A DNA stretch of 64,000 nt. Source: Rhizoclosmatium globosum. Lineage: Eukaryota > Chytridiomycota > Chytridiomycetes > Chytridiales > Chytriomycetaceae. Made by a program: the position numbers and the translations under genes. Within the stretch, counting starts at the first letter, position 1, and every line of letters begins with the position of its first letter. This document shows, in pieces, positions 28,055-60,345 of this stretch. The notes under the pieces were generated by a model. That model worked only from the letters and a program-made list of their open reading frames with translations, had not been told where the DNA came from and made no database searches. The stretch is taken from NCBI GenBank assembly GCA_002104985.1, contig MCGO01000030.1, forward strand, positions 62,001-126,000. Reading direction: 5' to 3'.

Positions 28055-30817
28055 ATGTCAAATCCTTCCATGAAATCGATTCATTTGGAGTTTGGTCTCA
28101 GGTGGGATGTTGAAGATTATACTACTCCAGCAGAAGTAAACAACTCTGTCCCTCAACCTCTCTTCAACGTAAAAGCGGGCAAATCTGCAAACATAAGCAC
28201 GTTATCAATTTCGAGAAGACGCAGTTCAGGAACTCCCGAAACTCAGATTCCTGATTTTCTTGCGTTTCAACAAAAGAAGCAAGCGTCTTACTTCAATATC
28301 TCGTCCCCATCTCCGCAAGTTACAAGACGCGCTAAGTCTCCATTTCAGCGACGACGTCAGACTGCAGACGCATCACCATCGACTCAAAATTTGTTCCTCC
28401 TATCCCGCATCGACTTGACACTTCTCAAATTCGGCTTCTGTTGCAACCAAATAGCACAGGAGGTATTAATGCAAGTCAGCAGGATGCAGCGCGGCATACG
28501 TCATTGAGTCGAGCTGCAAGAAAATTGAAGATATAAAGTCTGGCAGTCTTAAACGGAACCACGACTTGCCAGCCAAAAGGGGATCTTTTTCACTCGATAG
28601 AAAGGGAACAATGAAAAACTTTGGAACGCTGGTGAACAATGGGAAGGAGACATATTCCTGAAAACTGAAACAATTTCAAACCCTCAAGACCTTCATGCAT
28701 GACGAGCATCTTTCACCGAAGTACTACCAAAAAGCGAACCATCAAATGTAACTCCAGCAGACACAAGGATTGAATTGAGTTCCACAACATCGCTTGAAGC
28801 AAATGCATCAGATCAATCTTTCCAGTCCCAGGATATGCAAGATTTCATCCAGGAAATACACGCACTAACAGTTGGCGGCGTATCACCAAATGACGACTTC
28901 GACAAGACCCAACTTGATTCCACGTCTCGACGAGAATCTGACGCGTCAAATATGACTGATGTTGCAAGTCCCTATGGAACTCCAGAAAGATCGAAACTTC
29001 GGTCGAACACAATAAAGAAAACTGAAGTCACTAGACGTCAGCATCTCCGTCGACTACCAACTGTGGCGAGCGCAACTGCACCTACAGTAGATTTGGAAAA
29101 CATACAGGAAGTTTCACCACCAATCACGTTTTCAGAATGGTTGTTCGACTATTTCTCGTATTATTGTTTGATTCCAGCGTATGATAGTAAAGGGAGAAGA
29201 ATCACTTGGGATCAATTTGATGCATCTGATTTCAACGAAATATCGTTCCTGAGGAACGGATTGCATCCAAAGTCGATAGTTATTACTTATTTCGACGTAA
29301 TAACAGTGCTTGCCTATATCGTTTGCTTGGCGGAAGTTCCATTTATTATTGGGTTTAATAGTGTTCTACCAGATTCTTATGGAGAGTATTTCAGCGTAAT
29401 GTAAGTATCAAGGTATTTTATTTTGTATTAAATTTTATTGAACAGTTTTACCATCATGTTTTCTATTGAATCACTCGTTGCAATATCGACACCTAATTCG
29501 CAAATTGGAAAAACGACAATCTACAGCATCCGAGAGTACGAATCATTAAGGCCTTTTCTTAACCTTTGGATTCGCGAATGGCTCTCGTCTTACCTCTTCG
29601 TCGATCTAGTTTCTATTGTAACTTTAATTTATGTTCTTTCAACTTCACTCTTTAATTATTATCTTTTGTAGATTCCATTCAGTGCCATTGTAGGCTCTGA
29701 TGTCGTCTGGTTACGGCTACTTCGCTTACTAAGAATCCTTCGACTTGGCCAAAGCATCTCCCGATGTGCCATCTTTACACGAGTTAAACTATATGTGGAA
29801 GAAAGGATTGGAGTTGTGTCTGCTAAAATTTTGCCCATTGGAATCGGAATTATCGTCTTTTTACATTACAATGCCTGTGCTATATTTTATGCGGGTCAAC
29901 TACATGGCTTTCTTGGATGGAGCCAATTTTGGGGGCAGAATCAAACTGTGACTGTTTGGGACAGCTACCTTTGGTGTTTTTTACTTGCTGTTGGAAATTT
30001 GTTCCCAATGTCATACAAGTGAGTTTCGTTTATACATCCAGTGGAGAAAAAAGGCTTACGCGCCGCATTTTAAAGGCCGCAGACAAAGATGGAGCAACTT
30101 TTTGCTATTTTATTCATTTTCGTTGGAGCTGGAGTCTACGCTGTTCTTGTCGGATACATCTCCAGTGCAGCGATCTCTGTGGATAACTCAGGACGACTCT
30201 ACAATCAGAAAATGGAAGAATTGAAAGAATATATAACATGGAGACAGCTAAGCAACGAAACCAAAGATAAGCTAATCAGTTACTATGAAACCAAATATCG
30301 TGGCAAATATTTCGAGGAAGACACTCTGTTGGGTGAAATGAATGAAGCATTGCGAACTGAGATCGCGTTGCATAACACAGTCGACTTGATTACGAAAGTG
30401 CCCTTCTTGCGGCGGTCAGCAGGTGATGGCCGTGACGAAATATTTTACGCTCGAATCGCATCATGCTTGCATATACGATACTATATTGCGGGTGACTGTG
30501 TGACAAAGGAAGGCGACAGTGGAGCCGATATGTTCTTTATTCTCAGTGGAAAACTTGATATCGTGATTGGAGGAGAAGTGTATAAGTCGCTGTATGATGG
30601 AGCCTACTTTGGAGAAGTTGCACTCATCAACAAAGTGTTGCGAACTGCAACGGTACAAGCTAAAATGCCTAGTGTGTTGTATCGCCTCACGTATCAAGAC
30701 TTTCACACTGTTATAAATGAGTTTAGTGATATCAAGACTCGTATTATGGATTTAGCGCTCGAAAGGGAAAGAATTTTGATGCAAGTAGCTGCTATGGCCA
30801 CAGAAAAACGGTCATGA
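28055..30817 (+). CDS. HCN/CNG-type cyclic-nucleotide-binding ion channel
   Basis: A long disordered, Ser/Arg-rich N-terminus (28055 to about 29090) is followed by transmembrane helices from about 29270. S4 (about 29700-29760) has the voltage-sensor pattern WLRLLRLLRILRLGQS, with Arg every third residue. The pore region reads LWCFLLAVGNLFPMSYKPQ, then S6 IFVGAGVYAVLVGYISSAA. A C-linker (WRQLSNETKDKLISYYETKY) and a cyclic-nucleotide-binding domain follow, with a phosphate-binding cassette YFGEVALINKVLRTATV. Together these define a cAMP/cGMP-gated channel. The usual GYG (HCN) filter is absent, replaced by VGNLFP. Clear introns sit near 29401-29444, 29661-29670 and 30019-30074. The N-terminal exon frames need one extra base in A4 at 28386-28389 and again near 28518, so this part is uncertain. 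cAMP from the nearby soluble cyclase is a plausible ligand, by inference only. Confidence 0.85.
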
Positions 30818-30906
30818 AACCTAATTTTGAGCCTAACCAAATAAACCTTAAATTCATAATTTAGTGGTTTTACACAATTGAAATAACAAATCTCTAGAAC
30901 GCCCCT

Positions 30907-31643: not shown

Positions 31644-34600
31644 ATGCTCCATGTTTTGAATGACCAGGAGGTCTTTGCAAACTCGCCAGGTTAGATAAGC
31701 GATTTCATCAAGTTTCGCAGACCCAATTTGACACTCAATTCAACATCTTATCGCCCAATCATTCAGAACCAGAGTCCCTGGCAAGTAGAGACGACTTCTT
31801 TGATGGAACAGGTGAGTTACATTGGGTTGGAAGCCGGGGACTGGTCCTGACATATTGTTTGGCGTCAGATCCTCATCCGTCAAGGAAGCCACTGGCGTAC
31901 ATGGAAATCATTCCTCTTCCTCAGAGTTCGTTCTCATCGTTTCCATGCATAAGGTTAACCTGACAACTGCGTATCAGATGTTGTGAACTACGACCATCAA
32001 TACCCTCTTCAGGTGAAGATCATCAAATACTTGGATCCAAATGACTACGAAATCATTGCTATTGATAAAGCCACAAGAGGCCGGGATCTCAAGGCTAAGG
32101 TACACTGGTCTATTTTGCGTAGGGTTCTAACAACCATAGTAGATCCGAGACGCATTTGAACTTGGAAGTGCCTTCAACGTGTTAATCTTTTACCATATGT
32201 ACTCTGCCACAGGTGTAAAACGCAGAATGTTGACTGATCGAAGTCGTATCGAACCATTCTTTCTCAAATGCCAACTCCAGAAGAGAAAGCTGCATTTGAT
32301 TATTCTGACTTTGTCGAGGTCAGTGTGAATCAGGCTGGATCCAAGGAAGTTGTCATCAGAATCTTTGACTTTGATTTGGACCATCTGAAAGCTCAGGTAT
32401 TACAGTGTCTGCTGGAACTGCAAAGTTAACCATATTGTAGATTGAAAAGCATTTTGAAGTTCGAGGGACTGATTATAAACTACTTGCAGCAGAGTCGTGG
32501 ACATCTCCAAAGTCTGTGTTGAACCATCAACACTCAAAGACTTCTGTATCAATGGTTTCCACTTCTTTGTGGAGCGACCAAATGAAGAAGTCAAGAAGAA
32601 AGCAGACCAGCAAATTCCTCGATCAATTAAGAAGCTTGATGCCACAGAGGTCAACGAGTTTGATGTGATGATATCTTACTCATGGGCTACCAAAGACCAA
32701 GCTCTTGGCCTGTGTGATGCCTTGGCTGAAGCACTTCCTGGCATTAAGATCTGGGTTGACCGAAATGAAGTGAACGGAAACGTGAATGTCGCAATGGCGC
32801 GTGGGATTTTAAAGAGTTCTATCATGATTGTTTGCTTATCTGTGCCATACCTGGTATGTATAAGAATTATAATGGAAGCTTAGTCTAACAAGCTTTTCAG
32901 AATTCTTGGTATTGCAACAAGGAAATCAATTTTGCGGACGAAAACAAGAAGCCCATTATTCCAGCATACATGTTTGGAGACTTGACTGCGGATGAAATCC
33001 AGAAGCTCAAACAGACTCCCGAGCTTGCAGCTCCCTTCATCATGTCCACAGGGAGAATGTACAGTGACTTTGGATCCTCGCTGAAAGGGTCTCCCAAGTT
33101 TGAAGTCGCTGTCAAAACTATTGTCGACGAGTTGCGAATCTTGATTCCTCGATTTAGAGCCGTGTCTCCATTGCGAAGTCCCCCAGTTTCACCAGCTCAA
33201 ACTCCAACCCCCCTCATCACAGTTCTGAAGACCCTCTCAAGAAATGGGTGAAACCAATCAACTTCTCTCTAGATTTAGCCAGTTACAAGAAAGATTATGT
33301 GCCTGGAACCCGCGTTTGGCTTGGAGATGAAGTTATTGAATGGGCTGAACGACTGAAGAGTCCGCCGTTATGTGGGTCAGTGGGGCGGCTGGAACCGGAA
33401 AGTCTCTGTTATCATACTACATTATCAACCACCTACCCCAGGACAAATTTATCACGGATGTGTTCTTCTTCTGCCGTCACAACGATGAAGAAAAGAATAA
33501 TCCAGCAATTGTAATTAGAACACTGATCTGGATGCTCTGCCAACATATTCCTGCGTTAAGAAAACATGTCGACAGTGGAATGAAAGAAGATGAGGCACAT
33601 ACCAAGACTGGACGTTCAAGCATATTGTTGGACGCATAAAATCATTTGAACAATTAATTGTCAACGGTTTCAAGACACTTACACATCCTGGCAAGACTGT
33701 CCTCATCACAATTGATGCGCTCGATGAATTGAATGGGAAGACAAGATCTTCTGTCCTTCGCATTTTGTCAGAATTGGTCCCAAAGCTTCCTTCGTACATT
33801 AAGTTCTTTGTGACAGGTCGCCCAGAAAAGGATATTTATGACTGTCTAACCAAAGTTGGCTCTTTTGAGCTTGAGCCATCAGCGACTGAGAACATGGCCG
33901 ACATCAGAATGGTTGTGGCCAATCGTTCAAAAAGATTTGGGGTGTTGAGGAGCCATTTGCAGGAGTGCTTTTAGAATGCCTTGAAAGTGTGGTGGAGAGA
34001 TCTGAAGGTGTCTTCATATTCGTAAAGGTTGTTTGTGAATATTTGAGGGACAGCAAAGTGTCTCCTGAGGAAGCAATGGCTGCCATTGAAGGGTTTTCTG
34101 CTGGTCCAGATGACGTGTACGATGCAATTGCAAAGCGTGTTATTGATGAAGTTGGATCTGATCTGTACCATAATGTGCTTGGAGCCATTTTGTTCGTTTC
34201 AGAACCTCTGGATTTGGAATCACTCAGCATCCTCGCTGCAACTCCATTGGACCCCACTTGCGACTTCTTTGACAAAGTAAGTTGTTTAGTGAGTATCAGC
34301 GAGAGTTTAATTCACGATGATAGATGCGCTCATTGTTGAGAATCATAGATGGAGACGTTTCAGTAATTCACAAATCTGTGAAGGACTACTTCACATCAAA
34401 ACTCCGTTGTGATCCAAGTTACTATATTGACACCACAGCTGCGAACCTCCTCCTCGCGACCTCCTGTCTTGACATACTTGCCTCACTTCTTGATGCAAGT
34501 CACACTAGAATCCTTCCAAAGAGCTTTAGCAGAAATTCTTCTTTCTCGGTTCAAGGACGCAAATCCTTCTCTGGTAGTTTGCGTAATTCTTCAATCTCAG

Positions 34601-36021
34601 AGAAGGCCGGAACATCATCAAACGTTGGCAGTGTCTTCTCCAAAATCACGTCACTCCTCAAAAAGTACGGTAAACCAATGCCCGGTCCAAAAACATCCAC
34701 ATTCGTTCCTGCAAAACTCGATTTGTCGAATTTATCGACTGTTTCTCGCTACGCGATCCAGAACCTTGTCTTGCACCTAGATCCAACAGTACTGCCACCA
34801 AATATTGAAGATTTTCTTGAAAAGTATGGGCCAGAAGTTTTGTTGCACTTGTCGGCACGAAGTGGAAGCTCCAGTGTGGCGGTTTGGCTCCTCCAAGAAA
34901 AAGGTGCTGACATTGAAGCAAAAGATGCACAGGATAAGACTCCTCTTCAACTGGCTGTTGAAAATCGACACGCAGATATGGTGGAAATGTTGCTAGATAA
35001 CGGTGCTCAACTAGAATCGAAAGATGCAGTGGGATGGACGGCGTTACACGGAGCTGCATGGAACGGACAAAGGGAGCTTGTTCAAGCTCTCTTGAATCGT
35101 GGAGCTGATGGAAATGCGGAAAGTATGTTGAAGCGCACGCCACTTCATATTGCGGCTTGGAGTGGAGACCTCCAAATGGCCAAAATGCTGGTTGCAAAAG
35201 GCTCTCAACTGGAGATTCGCGATACGGAAGGAAAGACCCTTTAATTATGGCTGCAGAGAAGGGACAGCTGGAAGTAGTCTCGTATCTGCTTGATCTTGGG
35301 GCCAATATTATGGCTCATGGAATTTGGGGTCAAACTTCTCTTCACAGAGCTGCTGAGAATGGTCACTTGCATGTTATCAAGTTCCTTGTTGCAAAAGGTG
35401 CAATTGTTCCTATCTCGGATTTCTACGGCCGCACGTCAGTCTCAACAGCTGCATTTGGTGGTCACACTCATGTAATTCAATACTTACTCGAACATGGCGC
35501 GTCAGTTGACACTGAAGATGCTAACGGCATGTCACCTTTACATGAAGCAGCCAAACAAGGTCACAAGGAAACTGTTGAATTTTTGTTGGCAAAGGGAGCT
35601 CGAGTCAATGCTGAAGACAAGAGTGGCCGCACTCCACTTATATTGCGTCTTTAGGTTGCCATAAAGATATTATTCAGGAATTGATGGATAATGGAGCTGC
35701 AATTGACCATGCCAACCAGTATGGAGAATCAGCCTTATTCCTTGCTACTGCTGGAGGGCATGTGGACGTTGTGCAAACTTTACTTGAAATGGGGGCAAAT
35801 GTGACGTTACTAATAGCGATGGAGATACGCCTTGTTATATTGCGGCCAGTGTTGGACTCAAGGACATTGTGCAATTATTAGTTCATTATGGAGCAAATCC
35901 AAATGCTGTGAATGCACGTGGTGACTCTGTTCTTCAAGCGGCTATACGTGGAGGTCACCTTGAAGTAGTCTACCTTTTTCGAGAGAAGGGAGCAGTGGAA
36001 AAGCCATTGAATGAAGAATAA
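31644..36021 (+). CDS. TIR-NACHT-ankyrin NLR-like STAND protein
   Basis: Exons 31644-31689, 31767-31811, 31869-31925, 31978-32099, 32143-32396, 32441-32853, 32901-34276 and 34324-36021 give about 1,340 residues. Two successive segments (about 32000-32260 and 32315-32590) look ubiquitin-like. A TIR domain follows (about 32660-32960): FDVMISYSWATKDQALGLCD, KIWVDRNEVNG, then NSWYCNKEINFADE with a Glu at the NADase position. A NACHT-type NTPase comes next, with Walker A WVSGAAGTGKS (about 33370) and Walker B VLITIDALDELNG (about 33700), then FFVTGRPE. About ten ankyrin repeats (34900-36010) end the protein. This is the sensor-switch-effector plan of NLR immune and cell-death receptors. All needed frame changes are single missing bases, mostly in homopolymers (32266-32268, 33208-33213, 33939-33942, 35237-35239, 35638-35639 and others). 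The start is uncertain. Confidence 0.82.
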
Positions 36022-36023
36022 TT

Positions 36024-36110
36024 TAAGGGGTCACCTGGCTCTCTTCTCCACGTATAATATCCAACCTGAAGAGCCTCCAAAATGGCCTTGCCAGGTCTCT
36101 TCCAATGCAA
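36024..36110 (+). pseudogene. Fragment related to the SGNH/NXPE-like gene
   Basis: Just after the NLR stop, about 87 bp resemble 24155-24245 inside the NXPE-like gene. Shared blocks include GGGG.CACCTGGCTCTC, CAC.TATAATATCC.ACCT and CAAAATGGCC. With one added base it would read PGSL.RIISNLKSLQNG, which fits a protein-level relative rather than a recent copy. No other part of that gene is present. It is a relic of an ancestral gene arrangement or a transposed exon. Confidence 0.55.
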
Positions 36111-36962
36111 ATAGTATTAAGAATAAAGAATAGCTGCTAAACATTTATATCTTATATGTATAGATAAGATTGTTTCAAAACATTCCAGCTTCATATATGC
36201 TGCTTGTTGTTCTACTTCTTTCAAGCTTTGTTGCTGCATCAGAGCAGAAGAGTTGTCTTTGGACTGAGTCCAATTTTAACCTTCTCTGTCCCCAATCTGC
36301 GTCCCTGTATTGCAACTGTTGCAGATTATACAATCACTCTGTCTCTGTCTGAGGTATTTTTTGGAAACATATGAGCAGCAATTTGAGGTGGCAATTATTG
36401 ACCCAGAAGATGATACAGTTCTTGCTTTGCTACTTACTTAATACCATAGCGCTGGTTGACTAAGTCTCATTGTATTGTTTCCAGTTGATTTAGAGTGACA
36501 ATTTATTCACTACAATAAGAATAACTTTGAAGATCCTTTTGCTATTCATCTGGATACAATTCAAGTATTAAGGATAATGGTTCAGGATTTTCTTTGCCTC
36601 TTTATATTGGTGCTATGAAGTTTCCAACTACTGTCTTGCAAACTCAATTTGATAATTTCATACCTCTTACTTGGAACACATTGATTGGCCTACAATTGTT
36701 TGTCTGTTGAGCCCAAAATTGGCCCATTAAATACCTCTGTTGTTGTTTTAAGCTGCTTCTTCAAGTGGCTACTACTGCTTTAAGGATCTGGTTCTTTGTT
36801 TTATTTCAAGTCATTTCAGATGCTTTGAATTGATTGAAAATAAATGATTGGATTACTCCAGAATCACCTTGACAAAGTGTTTTTCACATATTGGACCAAA
36901 TTATTTTTGAAGGAATATGGAAACAATTTGAAATATTTCTCACTCAACATTCAAAAGAGACA
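36111..36962. other. AT-rich spacer left of the Harbinger element
   Basis: No recognisable gene. A short hydrophobic frame at 36170-36352 and an AT-rich frame from 36844 that runs into the transposon are not convincing as genes. The sequence continues beyond the transposon at 39774. Confidence 0.4.
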
Positions 36963-36965
36963 TAA

Positions 36966-36984
36966 GAGCAACTCCACCGGGAAG
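36966..36984 (+). repeat. Harbinger left terminal inverted repeat
   Basis: The sequence starts GAGCAACTCCACCGGGAAG. It matches the inverse of the right end over about 19 bp with a one-base G-run difference. The target duplication TAA lies directly before it. Confidence 0.88.
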
Positions 36985-37089
36985 GGGGCAAATTGTCAGT
37001 TATATCCAAGCAAAAGTCCTCTTGAGAAAAAAAAGGACGGGTCAAATTGTTTTTTTCTACATCGCCCCATCTACCAAATCACAGACCAA

Positions 37090-38563
37090 ATGCAAAGTTG
37101 TTCCCCTGAAGCCCTCCACGCACTGGCACATACCTCCATCAGCCAGCTTCTTCTTAATGGGGGTCAAATGCTTCAAACAGGTGGCGAAAATGACTCTTTT
37201 GAAATGCTACTGTCTCTCGTTCATCACTCCACCACACAACAACACTCGCATGGCGGCTCGGTACCAGGACGAGCACCAAATATTGATAGAGAGTTTGAAA
37301 AGTTTCATCAAATTCTATTTGAAGACTACTTCGCTGAACGGCCACGATACAATGAAACCATTTTCCGCCGACGCTTTCGAATGCCCCGGGTTTTATTCAA
37401 TCACATTACCAACACTGTCATTGCAAATAATTCCTACTTCCAGCAGCGGCCAGACGCAGTTGGGAAAATGGGCTTGTCAGGACTGCAAAAGGTCTGTGCA
37501 GCGTGGCGGGTCCTCTGTTACGGCTTGTCTGCAGACCTTGTTGATGAATACTTCAAAATTGGTGAGAGCACTGTTCTTGTTTGCGTGAAAGGTGAGTGAA
37601 GTTTGTATTGGTTGTTCCATTGACATAAAACCAGAGTTCTGTGCTTCCATTTCGACTCTATTTGGGATAGAGTACCTACGATCTCCAACAGAAGAAGATA
37701 TGATAAGACTGTTAGCCGAAAATGCTGAACGAGGCTTTACCGGCATGTTGGGATCGTTGGATTGTATGCACTGGGTTTGGAAGAATTGCCCTCGAGCGCT
37801 GAAAGGACAGTACAAAGGGAAAGAAGACGGAGCAACTGTGATTCTGGAGGCTGTTGCGTCGTATGATTTGTGGATATGGCACGCTTTTTTTGGGCTTCCA
37901 GGAACGAACAATGACATCAACGTCCTCTCGAAGTCTCCGCTGTTGGATCTCCTAATGGCTGGACAGTCGCCTCCTTGCGAGTGGGAGATACGAGGAACAA
38001 AGTTCAATCATGGATACTGGCTTGTGGATGGTGAGTACCATGATTGCAGTTGTTGCACTATCACTCACTGATACAATTCCACAGGAATTTACCCGCCTTG
38101 GCCTGTCTTTGTCTCCACCATTTCGTCACCGTCTACGGCTGCAGAAAAGAACTTTGCCAAGGCTCAGGAGGCTGCACGAAAGGATGTCGAACGTGCGTTT
38201 GGAGTATTACAAGCTCGATTTGAGTTTTTGGTGAAGCCATGCAAGTTGTGGTACCGGGAGGAAATGAAACTGATCATGGAGGCGTTAATAGTTGTGCACA
38301 ATATGATTGTGGAGCACTATCGACTGCGTCGCGAAACATTGGAAGAATTTGAGTCCCCTTCCGAGCTTCCAAATCATATTCTAGAAGGAAACGAAGCAAC
38401 CGTTGCACTCCCTCAAGCAAATATGCAGATGCCAGCGACAGTACCTATGCCTCCATTTGCAACAATGTTACAGAACTTGGAGACTTTGAAGGACAAGTCT
38501 CAAGCTCAATTGTTGAAGAACTTATTGGTCCAGGAATTGTGGAATAGAAAAGGAAATAAATAA
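37090..38563 (+). CDS. Harbinger-type DDE transposase (plant-transposon-protein family)
   Basis: The start at 37090 is the first in-frame ATG inside the element. Three exons, with introns near 37593-37634 and 38033-38084, encode about 450 residues. The core has GSLDCMHWVWKNCP (first Asp), LPGTNNDINVLSKSPLL (second Asp) and RKDVERAFGVLQARF (Glu), the DDE triad of the PF04827/PF13359-like Harbinger nucleases. Upstream, RYNETIFRRRFRMPRVLF and GLQKVCAAWRVLCYG match the usual N-terminal helical region. The enzyme cuts the element's ends and joins them to TWA targets. The frame is intact throughout, so it may be active. Confidence 0.9.
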
Positions 38564-38588
38564 TGTATTTGATTTATTCTGGTTTGTT

Positions 38589-39581
38589 TTAAATGTTCTC
38601 TCTGAGCTCTCTGGCATCCAACACAGCCTCCTGCTGTTTCTGCCAGTACTCTAATACACGTCCCTTAAAATTGCTGAGATCCATTTGTAGAATCTTGTCT
38701 TCACGTGCAAGTCGCCCCTGTTGGTCGATCAATTGCGTCAACTTCTCTACACTTGCAATACCGCGCTCAAATGACTCCTTCTGTGCTTTCATAATATCAT
38801 TGCGCTCCTTATTTGTCTTTGCAGATTCCTCCAACGTACGCTGCATCTGTTCTCCTTTAAAGTCCTTCACTTCCTGAGCCTTTGCAGCTTTCACACCAGG
38901 TTCCCTCCCTCTGCATGGCGTCTTTCCAGGTTCAGAGTCAGGTGCTTCCACAGCATCTGGATCAAGTGCAGTAGAATGAGTAGATGGTGTCTGTGTAGTA
39001 GAGGAAGCTGCGGGCGTGCGTGAAGTTGTAGTTCTGATTTTTGCGTCAACATGATCCTTGTATTTGTCGGCGTCATGAAGAACTTGGTAGCAACCAAAGT
39101 ACTTGAATGGTTTGTTCTTGTTCTGCTTTGCATAAGCTTCAAGGGCTGATTGGAATGCCTGTTGCCGAAGAGTACCACTTGGTGGGATTGAGCGAAGTAG
39201 AGGTGAAAGAATACCAATAAATACTTGAACTTCTGCGGAGATTGTTGCCCAATGGGACTGAATGTGATTCCAGAGCCGGCTCTTTGTAGATGGATTTGGA
39301 GGGTAGACTGTGCCTTTGGTGCCGATGAAGCCATTTGCAACTAGGTCACGAATGCCAGTGTAGAAAGTTTCAGCCTTCTGGTCTGAAGAAGTGATAGCAT
39401 TCATAGATCGTACAAGGAAGGCGTCTGCTATAGCGATGAATTCGCCTTCAATGTAAGCAGCGCCACGTACGCCAGCCTTTTTGACAGGTAGTTCAGAATC
39501 ATCTTGAAGAGCGCGTTTGCTTCCTGTAGCCACAGCTGCATATGGCGGGTCAAATAGGGATGGCTGGATGGTGCTGGACAT
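38589..39581 (-). CDS. Harbinger accessory Myb/NAM-like DNA-binding protein
   Basis: This is one uninterrupted minus-strand frame of about 330 residues from MSSTIQPSLFDPPYA. It carries YIEGEFIAIADAFLVRSMNA and FWTRI-like positions (ETFYTGIRDLV), then LRQQAFQSALEAYAKQNKN and FKYFGCYQVLHD, the trihelix/NAM-associated pattern common in Harbinger partners. A Ser/Thr/Pro linker precedes a C-terminal coiled coil (EESAKTNKERNDIMKAQKE). In known systems the partner binds the element ends and brings the transposase into the nucleus. A longer frame starts at 39707, but the conserved part begins after 39581. Confidence 0.82.
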   Translation of the reverse strand: MSSTIQPSLFDPPYAAVATGSKRALQDDSELPVKKAGVRGAAYIEGEFIAIADAFLVRSMNAITSSDQKAETFYTGIRDLVANGFIGTKGTVYPPNPSTKSRLWNHIQSHWATISAEVQVFIGILSPLLRSIPPSGTLRQQAFQSALEAYAKQNKNKPFKYFGCYQVLHDADKYKDHVDAKIRTTTSRTPAASSTTQTPSTHSTALDPDAVEAPDSEPGKTPCRGREPGVKAAKAQEVKDFKGEQMQRTLEESAKTNKERNDIMKAQKESFERGIASVEKLTQLIDQQGRLAREDKILQMDLSNFKGRVLEYWQKQQEAVLDARELRENI

Positions 39582-39751
39582 TGGGAATAGGGTGTGTATG
39601 TGTATGTTGGCGTCGACCTTTCCCTCGACCTTTTTGCCTCGATTTGTTCCCAGAATTGTCCTGGGACTTTTTTTGCTCGGTGGTTTTGTCACGCGATGCA
39701 AACACAAAAAACAAAATTGTCAGGTTTATTTGTTTTGCTCAACGATTTGAT

Positions 39752-39770
39752 CCTTCCGGTGGAGTTGCTC
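39752..39770 (-). repeat. Harbinger right terminal inverted repeat
   Basis: Read on the minus strand, it starts GAGCAACTCCACCGGAAGG and pairs with the left end at 36966. It is followed on the plus strand by the target duplication TAA (39771-39773). Confidence 0.88.
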
Positions 39771-39773
39771 TAA

Positions 39774-52016: not shown

Positions 52017-56210
<4,194 letters not shown>

Positions 56211-58969: not shown

Positions 58970-60345
58970 TCAAGTTCCCTTCCGTATCGTCGTCGCTGCA
59001 TCGTCTTCATCTGCTGCGTGGTGTCCCACATCAACCAATAAATTAGTTTCAACCGGCCTCTGAAATGCTGCAAAAGCAGTTAACCGCTCCTGTTCATTTT
59101 CAGAAACCAAAGTTCGAGCAATATCTGGTTCCAAACTCTCTCTGATGCGACGATCTTCCACCAACAACTTCACACATTCTTGATGACTTCCTTGAACGGC
59201 TTTCCGTAAAGCTTCATTGTTATCCTGTTGTGGAGCAACAACTCTTTCATTCCCAAGTAAAACCCGAACGACATTCGCATGTCCTACAGAGCTTGCTAAA
59301 TAGAGTGGAGTCCGCGGTCCAGCCTGTGGATCGCACCGAGGGTCATTTGCCAAAAGATTCACGACTTCATGGTGTCCAGCCTTCGCCGCATCTTTGATTG
59401 GTAAATTGTTGATGATTCCCGGGTTCACTCGTGAATCCGCAAGAAGTAGACGAACAACTCCTGCGTGTCCATTCGCAGCTGAATTTCGAAGCGCTTCATC
59501 CATATTCACGGACGGGTCGACACGAGGGTCGGCAAGTAGTTTTTGGACAACTTCCGTATGGCCATGACGACTTGAGAGCTTGATTGCATAACCTCGGTTC
59601 GCACTTGGATCGACAGCAGGTATATTCAATAGTTTTTCCTTCGTGATTGGAGTTAGTGTTGAAGTTTGGGGAATATCGGTGGCGCTCTTACCACAATTCG
59701 GATTTCTCCTGATTCACTCGCACATTGGATAGCATAGTTGTCATCGTCCATAGGATTTACTCTTGGATCCTGAAGTAGTAACTGCACAACATCAAAGTAT
59801 CCACTTCTGCAGCTCCATCGAAACAGCCTTCCTTTCTGTGACGTCGGAGATACCCAAGGAAATGATAGCATGGTTGTAATGACTCTCAACGCCAGCGAAG
59901 GAGGCATTATCCACCGTCTATACCACATCAGGTTGCGATCCATATTGCTTCCGATCCAACCTTTGATCCCAGCCCAATCGTTCGCTTGACATACTTCCGC
60001 ATAGATGGCTGTGATATAATTGAAGGGAAAGTTGAGAAACTCTTGATTTTTGATGTTGTATTGATCAAGGAACGTCCACAAGTTATCGTGCCCTGACACT
60101 GCCATTTGAAACTTGATGTGTCGTCGAGCGAAGCATGCATCGTGCAGAATAGTTTGACAGAAGAGAGATTGGGAGGCAAGGGCAAGGTTGCGGAGGTCAT
60201 CGCTATTTATGGAAACCTGAAGCAATACCTCTTGCAGGATTTCAGGTGGAAGCGAATATATTGTAGTTCTATGCTGTATTTAGTTGCCGGAATGAGAGCC
60301 AGTTACTCACTGTGGGTCCGAGAGTGACGAGTGTGACCAATCCAT
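58970..60345 (-). CDS. F-box/ankyrin-repeat protein A
   Basis: Exon 1 (60345-60311) joins by a 42-bp intron to exon 2. It gives TTIYSLPPEILQEVLLQVS, an F-box-like N-terminus, then a helical linker with NDWAGIKGWIGSNMDRN. Ankyrin repeats follow in the DPRVDPS style (VVQLLLQDPRVNPMDDDNYA, HTEVVQKLLADPRVDPS and others). Another short intron follows GEIRIV near 59650-59700. The C-terminus is acidic. F-box ankyrin proteins probably select substrates for SCF ubiquitin ligases. It is a tandem paralogue of the next gene, same strand, 20 bp apart. Confidence 0.8.

Follow-up and report, generated by a model that had tools for sequence, protein, structure and literature searches.

A 64,000-nucleotide stretch of the Rhizoclosmatium globosum genome (contig MCGO01000030.1, positions 62,001 to 126,000; hereafter the window) carries on its plus strand a locus that encodes, in order, a TIR domain, a NACHT-type STAND NTPase and ankyrin repeats. 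The locus is probably a member of a large family of TIR-NACHT-repeat NLRs, the intact members of which would act as nucleotide-switch receptors, while the copy in the window is broken. As assembled, this copy cannot make a TIR-NACHT-ankyrin protein. The domain plan is carried by unbroken paralogs elsewhere in the genome, and the broken copy itself retains the marks of coding constraint.

Domain order, frame breaks and intact paralogs

A Pfam search placed TIR_2, then NPHP3_N, then ankyrin stretches across the open pieces of five exons at 31978–36021, in the order that the initial annotation had read from the letters. TIR_2 was found at 32665–32853 (E 8.8e-8 in the genome scan; 38 bits in its open piece by hmmscan, cut-off 28), and NPHP3_N, the Pfam model for NACHT-like STAND NTPases of this class, at 33352–33651 and 33639–33821 (71.1 and 27.9 bits in open pieces, cut-off 24.8). 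The generic NACHT model PF05729 reached 24.7 and 22.7 bits in the window pieces, just under its cut-off of 26.7, which many paralogs pass; NB-ARC scored 13.3 bits against a cut-off of 23.5, far below NPHP3_N. The domain scan that had been set as the refuting check thus detected both the TIR domain and a NACHT-type NTPase, even though PF05729 fell short. Ankyrin PF00023 matched 11 stretches (4, 4, 1 and 2) in four open pieces of 34324–36018, and only ankyrin models, with no leucine-rich repeat (LRR) model among them, matched the repeat region. The motifs quoted initially, GAAGTGKS (Walker A) and ITIDALDEL (Walker B), are both present. The conserved TIR glutamate, presumably the catalytic one, is retained in the window copy and likewise in 19 of the 19 alignment rows that cover the position. 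About 200 residues of a conserved module for which Pfam has no name precede the TIR domain. Homology to the intact paralogs begins at about 31978, immediately after an AG at 31976–31977, and the stop codon is at 36019–36021; of the range first given for the gene (31644..36021), the end was therefore correct, and the start at 31644 was rejected because no paralog supports it.

Stop-to-stop reading and paralog alignment revealed nine frame interruptions in the window copy, between 32.2 and 35.8 kb, all of which shift the frame by a net −1; the two Walker motifs, A and B, are read in separate frames. Continuous coding sequence, which the paralogs C14/C2 and C57/C26 possess, is thus lacking here, and as assembled this copy is not the working candidate receptor for which it had been taken. 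No stop-creating substitution was found in its properly aligned codons. A gap near 34633 was dropped as a further break, and an apparent TAG stop was dropped as well; both are artefacts of aligning a variable linker, over which the window copy itself reads open. One of the nine breaks lies in another variable linker and is visible as a 4-base gap against C14 only.

Four loci in the genome are closest to the window copy at the DNA level: C14 and C2, at 68–69% over the front two thirds and 64% in the ankyrin part, and C57 and C26, at 65% and 69%. The C14 and C57 frames run unbroken through all domains and, leaving the first exon aside, span no fewer than 1339 and 1312 residues; the second half of the TIR domain shares one open exon with NACHT in C14, C57 and C135 (478 and 537 codons in the intact paralogs). 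With two paralogs, each with its allele, unbroken through all domains, the one-gene plan that was proposed for the window holds for the family, though not for the window copy itself.

Allele partners showed no coding indels; C14 and C2 differed by 99 substitutions over 4020 columns, C57 and C26 by 8 over 3939. The C14/C2 differences comprise 87 synonymous and 12 non-synonymous changes, distributed as 43 to 0 over the N-terminal module, TIR and NACHT together and 44 to 12 over the rest. This synonymous excess indicates strong constraint on the C14 gene at least, strongest in the effector and the switch. At introns 1 and 3 the splice used for C57 loses one codon each, and GT-AG borders shifted by a codon give a better fit there; the frame is unaffected, and the C57 search protein lacked two residues because of it. 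The C57 protein was missing among the rows of its own relatives search in the protein database, and so apparently has no full-length annotation.

The family in this genome and in other chytrids

Across the genome we counted 92 TIR_2 matches at E ≤ 0.001 (86 above the curated cut-off, counted by eye) and 66 NPHP3_N matches; these counts are per exon, include alleles and are lower bounds. For 37 of the 92 TIR matches, the 2.5 kb downstream hold a same-strand STAND match (the 66 NPHP3_N plus three NACHT-only places), against about 0.1 expected from random placement by hand arithmetic. The remaining 55 have no STAND match within 2.5 kb, and parallel TIR arrays of this kind occur on contigs C55 and C112. 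The rarity claimed for the architecture may hold for fungi overall, but TIR-STAND pairs are common here, and TIR in NLRs of Chytridiomycota is already in print, according to the accessible text of PMC9815663, which cites Daskalov, Dyrka and Saupe 2020.

Members differ in their sensors, with ankyrin repeats in C14, C57 and C35, Sel1 repeats at C135, and WD40 repeats in P0065, an R. globosum protein, and P0066, which UniRef labels as TIR domain-containing. The C135 locus L038 (C135:88675-92193) combines TIR, NACHT and Sel1 repeats with a stretch that looks SAM-like by eye, to which no Pfam model matched. The annotated R. globosum protein BCR33DRAFT_848072 (P0004) maps to locus L040 on contig C13, at 99–100% over two pieces (617 residues) and at 89–96% over three pieces at exon edges, in agreement with the chytrid origin that had been guessed from the letters; R. 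globosum belongs to the Chytridiales. Both P0004 and P0001, a protein of Rhizoclosmatium sp. JEL0117, hold TIR and NACHT together.

The same architecture, which the initial annotation had suggested seeking in chytrids, was found in the genome paralogs, and TIR-NACHT proteins were retrieved from Rhizoclosmatium, Podochytrium, Entophlyctis, Physocladia, Chytriomyces, Blyttiomyces and Borealophlyctis. The relatives searches returned 25, 38 and 12 rows by a shared-word method, with scoring limited to the best candidates in two of them, and absence outside the returned genera does not follow. Among 13 aligned relatives, NPHP3_N matched in all 13 and TIR_2 in 11. By eye, the Obelidium protein P0003 and the Siphonaria protein P0031 have an unassigned helical domain at the start, ahead of the N-terminal module, P0063 (Rhizoclosmatium sp. 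JEL0117) combines the helical domain with TIR and NACHT, and P0030 (Blyttiomyces sp. JEL0837), a partial sequence, carries two TIR/STAND units in tandem. Frame changes or stops were also seen by eye at the second C57 locus (L062+L024), at C179 (L064+L033) and at the C26 locus near 57 kb (L065+L029); decay or assembly damage is thus not confined to the window copy.

The broken copy and its surroundings

Four GT-AG introns of 43–47 bases, at positions common to two paralogs, divide the window copy (Table 1). By analogy, the VIHKS segment of the last exon may occupy the winged-helix position.

Table 1. Features of the TIR-NACHT-ankyrin locus, in window positions
Feature	Position	Strand	Basis
Exon, first part of conserved N-terminal module	31978..32099	+	Alignment to intact paralogs C14, C57
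Intron 1, GT-AG, 43 bases	32100..32142	+	Position common to paralogs
Exon, N-terminal module continued; one frame break	32143..32396	+	Stop-to-stop reading, paralog alignment
Intron 2, GT-AG, 44 bases	32397..32440	+	Paralog comparison
Exon, last part of N-terminal module plus first half of TIR; one frame break, upstream of TIR	32441..32853	+	
TIR first half, TIR_2 match	32665..32853	+	Genome scan, hmmscan
Intron 3, within TIR, GT-AG, 47 bases	32854..32900	+	Paralog comparison
Exon, TIR second half (Cys-x-x-Glu), then NACHT-type STAND NTPase and helical region; four frame breaks	32901..34276	+	
NPHP3_N / NACHT STAND NTPase core; Walker motifs A and B in different frames	33352..33821	+	Pfam matches
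Intron 4, GT-AG, 47 bases	34277..34323	+	Paralog comparison
Exon, VIHKS segment, linker, 11 ankyrin stretches, stop; three frame breaks; no CaaX tail	34324..36021	+	

Upstream, at 28700–30830, lies a channel-like gene with a cyclic-nucleotide-binding domain; a 90% copy of it, in inverted orientation, is found elsewhere on the contig at a distance of about 164 kb, and the allele of that copy is on contig C382. Just downstream, at 36963–39773, is a complete-looking PIF/Harbinger-type transposon with 16-base terminal inverted repeats and TAA flanking both sides, encoding a Plant_tran transposase on the plus strand and a NAM-associated protein on the minus strand. A copy on C146 matches it at 99.4% identity, with 18 differences and no gap over 2778 columns. 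Further along, on the minus strand, are a piece of a USP7-like ubiquitin protease (52469–53002) and a separate ankyrin protein (58973–59629).

The broken copy still bears the mark of coding constraint. Substitutions unique to one copy fell on codon positions 1:2:3 as 164:73:259 in the window, 137:93:256 in C14 and 168:97:242 in C57 (3734 columns, a badly aligned linker included), and a crude bootstrap gave a 95% interval of −0.67 to −0.02 for the neutral fraction on the window branch, that is, no neutral component. This codon-position pattern is hard to reconcile with a long neutral period. Constraint in a broken copy, coupled with clean neighbouring coding sequence, points either to a gene that became a pseudogene very recently or to a local fault of the assembly.

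We give an even chance to the first of these, very recent pseudogene formation within an NLR family that evolves by birth and death, as the frame breaks are concentrated within the NLR gene and the other loci with frame changes or stops named above look broken by eye as well. However, nine same-direction shifts with neither a stop gain nor relaxed substitutions make an odd record of decay. One-directional losses of this kind look like consensus errors, and an intact gene whose breaks are residual errors of a long-read consensus, for example where a divergent second allele collapsed into the same contig, stands at a little under even in our estimation. Were the directions of the shifts even, nine of the same sign would have a probability of 2 × 0.5^9 = 0.004 by hand; the absence of nonsense substitutions from properly aligned codons and of a neutral component from the window branch fit an assembly fault too. 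The accessible part of PMC6757388 reports the R. globosum JEL800 assembly, presumably the one studied here, as likely diploid (a JEL800 transcriptome is also published, ENA PRJNA1076503, as PMC12115818 notes), and allelic contig C382 has two single-base gaps in the channel-gene coding sequence relative to its partner copy. Set against these, the window's own channel gene has no coding gap, its two single-base gaps being in an intron, and the window transposon copy is free of gaps over all its aligned columns. For gaps spread evenly over the three stretches, all nine would fall in the NLR gene with a probability of about 0.0008, or at least nine of eleven with about 0.015 if the two intron gaps are counted (both by hand), and the alleles of intact members are free of coding indels relative to one another. 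With the NLR gene itself and three flanking stretches as queries, a second haplotype of the region was not found. Divergent alleles collapsed at the NLR gene would fit both the reported diploidy and the failure to find a second haplotype, as would a very recent pseudogene.

Proposed function and relation to known receptors

From fold and motifs, we infer an immune or self-recognition role for the intact members of the family. An ankyrin solenoid (WD40 or Sel1 in other members) would keep the protein off or read a ligand, whereupon the NACHT-type STAND NTPase would swap its nucleotide and oligomerise; the gathered TIR domains could then cleave NAD+ or make a nucleotide signal, with cell death or a defence response as the putative outcome.

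Besides the frame breaks of the window copy, several observations weigh against this reading. The C57/C26 pair differs by 2 synonymous and 6 non-synonymous changes, two of the six in NACHT, which are too few to judge and give no sign of constraint. P0003 and P0031 have NACHT and ankyrin without a TIR match in Pfam, and P0063 has valine at the conserved TIR glutamate, so catalysis may not be universal. The P0004 model aligns with the plant receptor RPP1 at TM-scores of only 0.16–0.27 and root-mean-square deviations of 23–25; single domains match, their arrangement does not.

It is unlikely, though a real prospect, that the intact members signal outside immunity, for example in development or symbiont contact. 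TIR and STAND modules are known from other settings, but in the combined TIR-STAND-repeat plan and in their many copies these genes resemble receptors known from immunity and allorecognition. That separate TIR and NACHT genes stand side by side and were joined by eye is highly improbable: the reading frames of the window indeed do not join, but annotated P0004 and P0001 each carry both domains, and the exons common to both in C14, C57 and C135 contradict it for the family.

By its sequence, the window copy would class as a fungal NLR, with an effector, a NACHT-type STAND bearing Walker A and Walker B, and repeats, and not as a plant-type TIR-NB-LRR. In line with the accessible description of Chytridiomycota TIR NLRs (PMC9815663), it has an N-terminal TIR, a NACHT-type NTPase, fungal-type repeats and a chytrid host; the description there is without gene-level detail, and here there are in addition the pre-TIR module, the CaaX tails of two intact paralogs and the broken copy. 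An earlier survey (PMC4986451, 2014), in its accessible text, found no NLR in chytrids. Among the matches listed there was no paper on Rhizoclosmatium TIR-NACHT-ankyrin genes, a weak test; Daskalov, Dyrka and Saupe 2020 may contain them.

A close likeness within the genus is P0001 (HDU79_009123), which has the N-terminal module, TIR, NPHP3_N and ankyrin and is 45% identical to C57 over 88% of C57; its annotated model lacks the TIR Cys-x-x-Glu part, present in the near relative P0002, and has no CaaX tail. The predicted P0001 model contains an ankyrin solenoid, and ankyrins filled its structure-match list. The plant TIR-NLRs RPP1 and RUN1 likewise place TIR before a STAND switch, and single domains of the P0004 model, in which the TIR fold is present, match theirs; they differ in having NB-ARC in place of NPHP3_N/NACHT and LRR in place of ankyrin, WD40 or Sel1, and in lacking the roughly 200 residues before TIR. 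Of the PDB sequence searches, one was swamped by WD40 and another gave one unrelated row. The Podospora hnwd proteins (HET-NACHT-WD40) share a TIR-related effector, NACHT, repeats and a fungal host, but have a HET domain and WD40 repeats and serve ascomycete allorecognition with genetics behind it, as the accessible texts of PMC12881547 and PMC10197012 describe. Thus, this is a known kind of receptor family, possibly with new details.

Such details may be the pre-TIR module and the CaaX tails of the intact paralogs, on neither of which a literature search was made. In the P0004 model, residues 3–90, the first half of the module, are predicted as strand-strand-helix-strand-helix-strand, with a predicted local distance difference test (pLDDT) score mostly near 80 (54–67 in residues 41–70). 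This order is that of beta-grasp folds, and the first half of the module is therefore predicted to be beta-grasp-like in a paralog. Pfam matched three of six module pieces, all below threshold, including ubiquitin-like, PB1 and SAMP2 models; the module region of the P0001 model mostly has pLDDT below 50, and structure searches barely probed the beta-grasp reading. The C-terminal tails, CVVM in C14/C2 and CVLM in C57/C26, fit what we take to be the farnesylation box. No CaaX was found in the window copy, either at its earlier end or in the three plus-strand frames of 35900–36900, in any of 18 database relatives, several of them partial, or at those ends that were read in C35 and in the second locus of C57; a possible third tail of this type, CALM at C179, comes from a reading frame that is not joined to the rest. 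We tentatively suggest, while holding it less likely than not, a Chytridiales NLR branch in which TIR follows paired ubiquitin-like beta-grasp domains and some ankyrin members end in a farnesylation-type CaaX, forming a lipid-tethered TIR resistosome diversified by swapping of sensors (ankyrin, WD40, Sel1) and effectors (TIR or the unassigned helical domain).

In conclusion, a by-eye domain reading can overlook a broken frame. TIR-STAND receptors occur in plants, animals and bacteria, while fungal examples are, to our knowledge, few and experimentally unprobed. In a culturable chytrid that has TIR-STAND matches by the dozen, paralogs under constraint and sensors of several types, TIR NAD+ cleavage and cell death could be tested in a fungus, and the same family bears on whether fungal TIR-STAND receptors are old or acquired.
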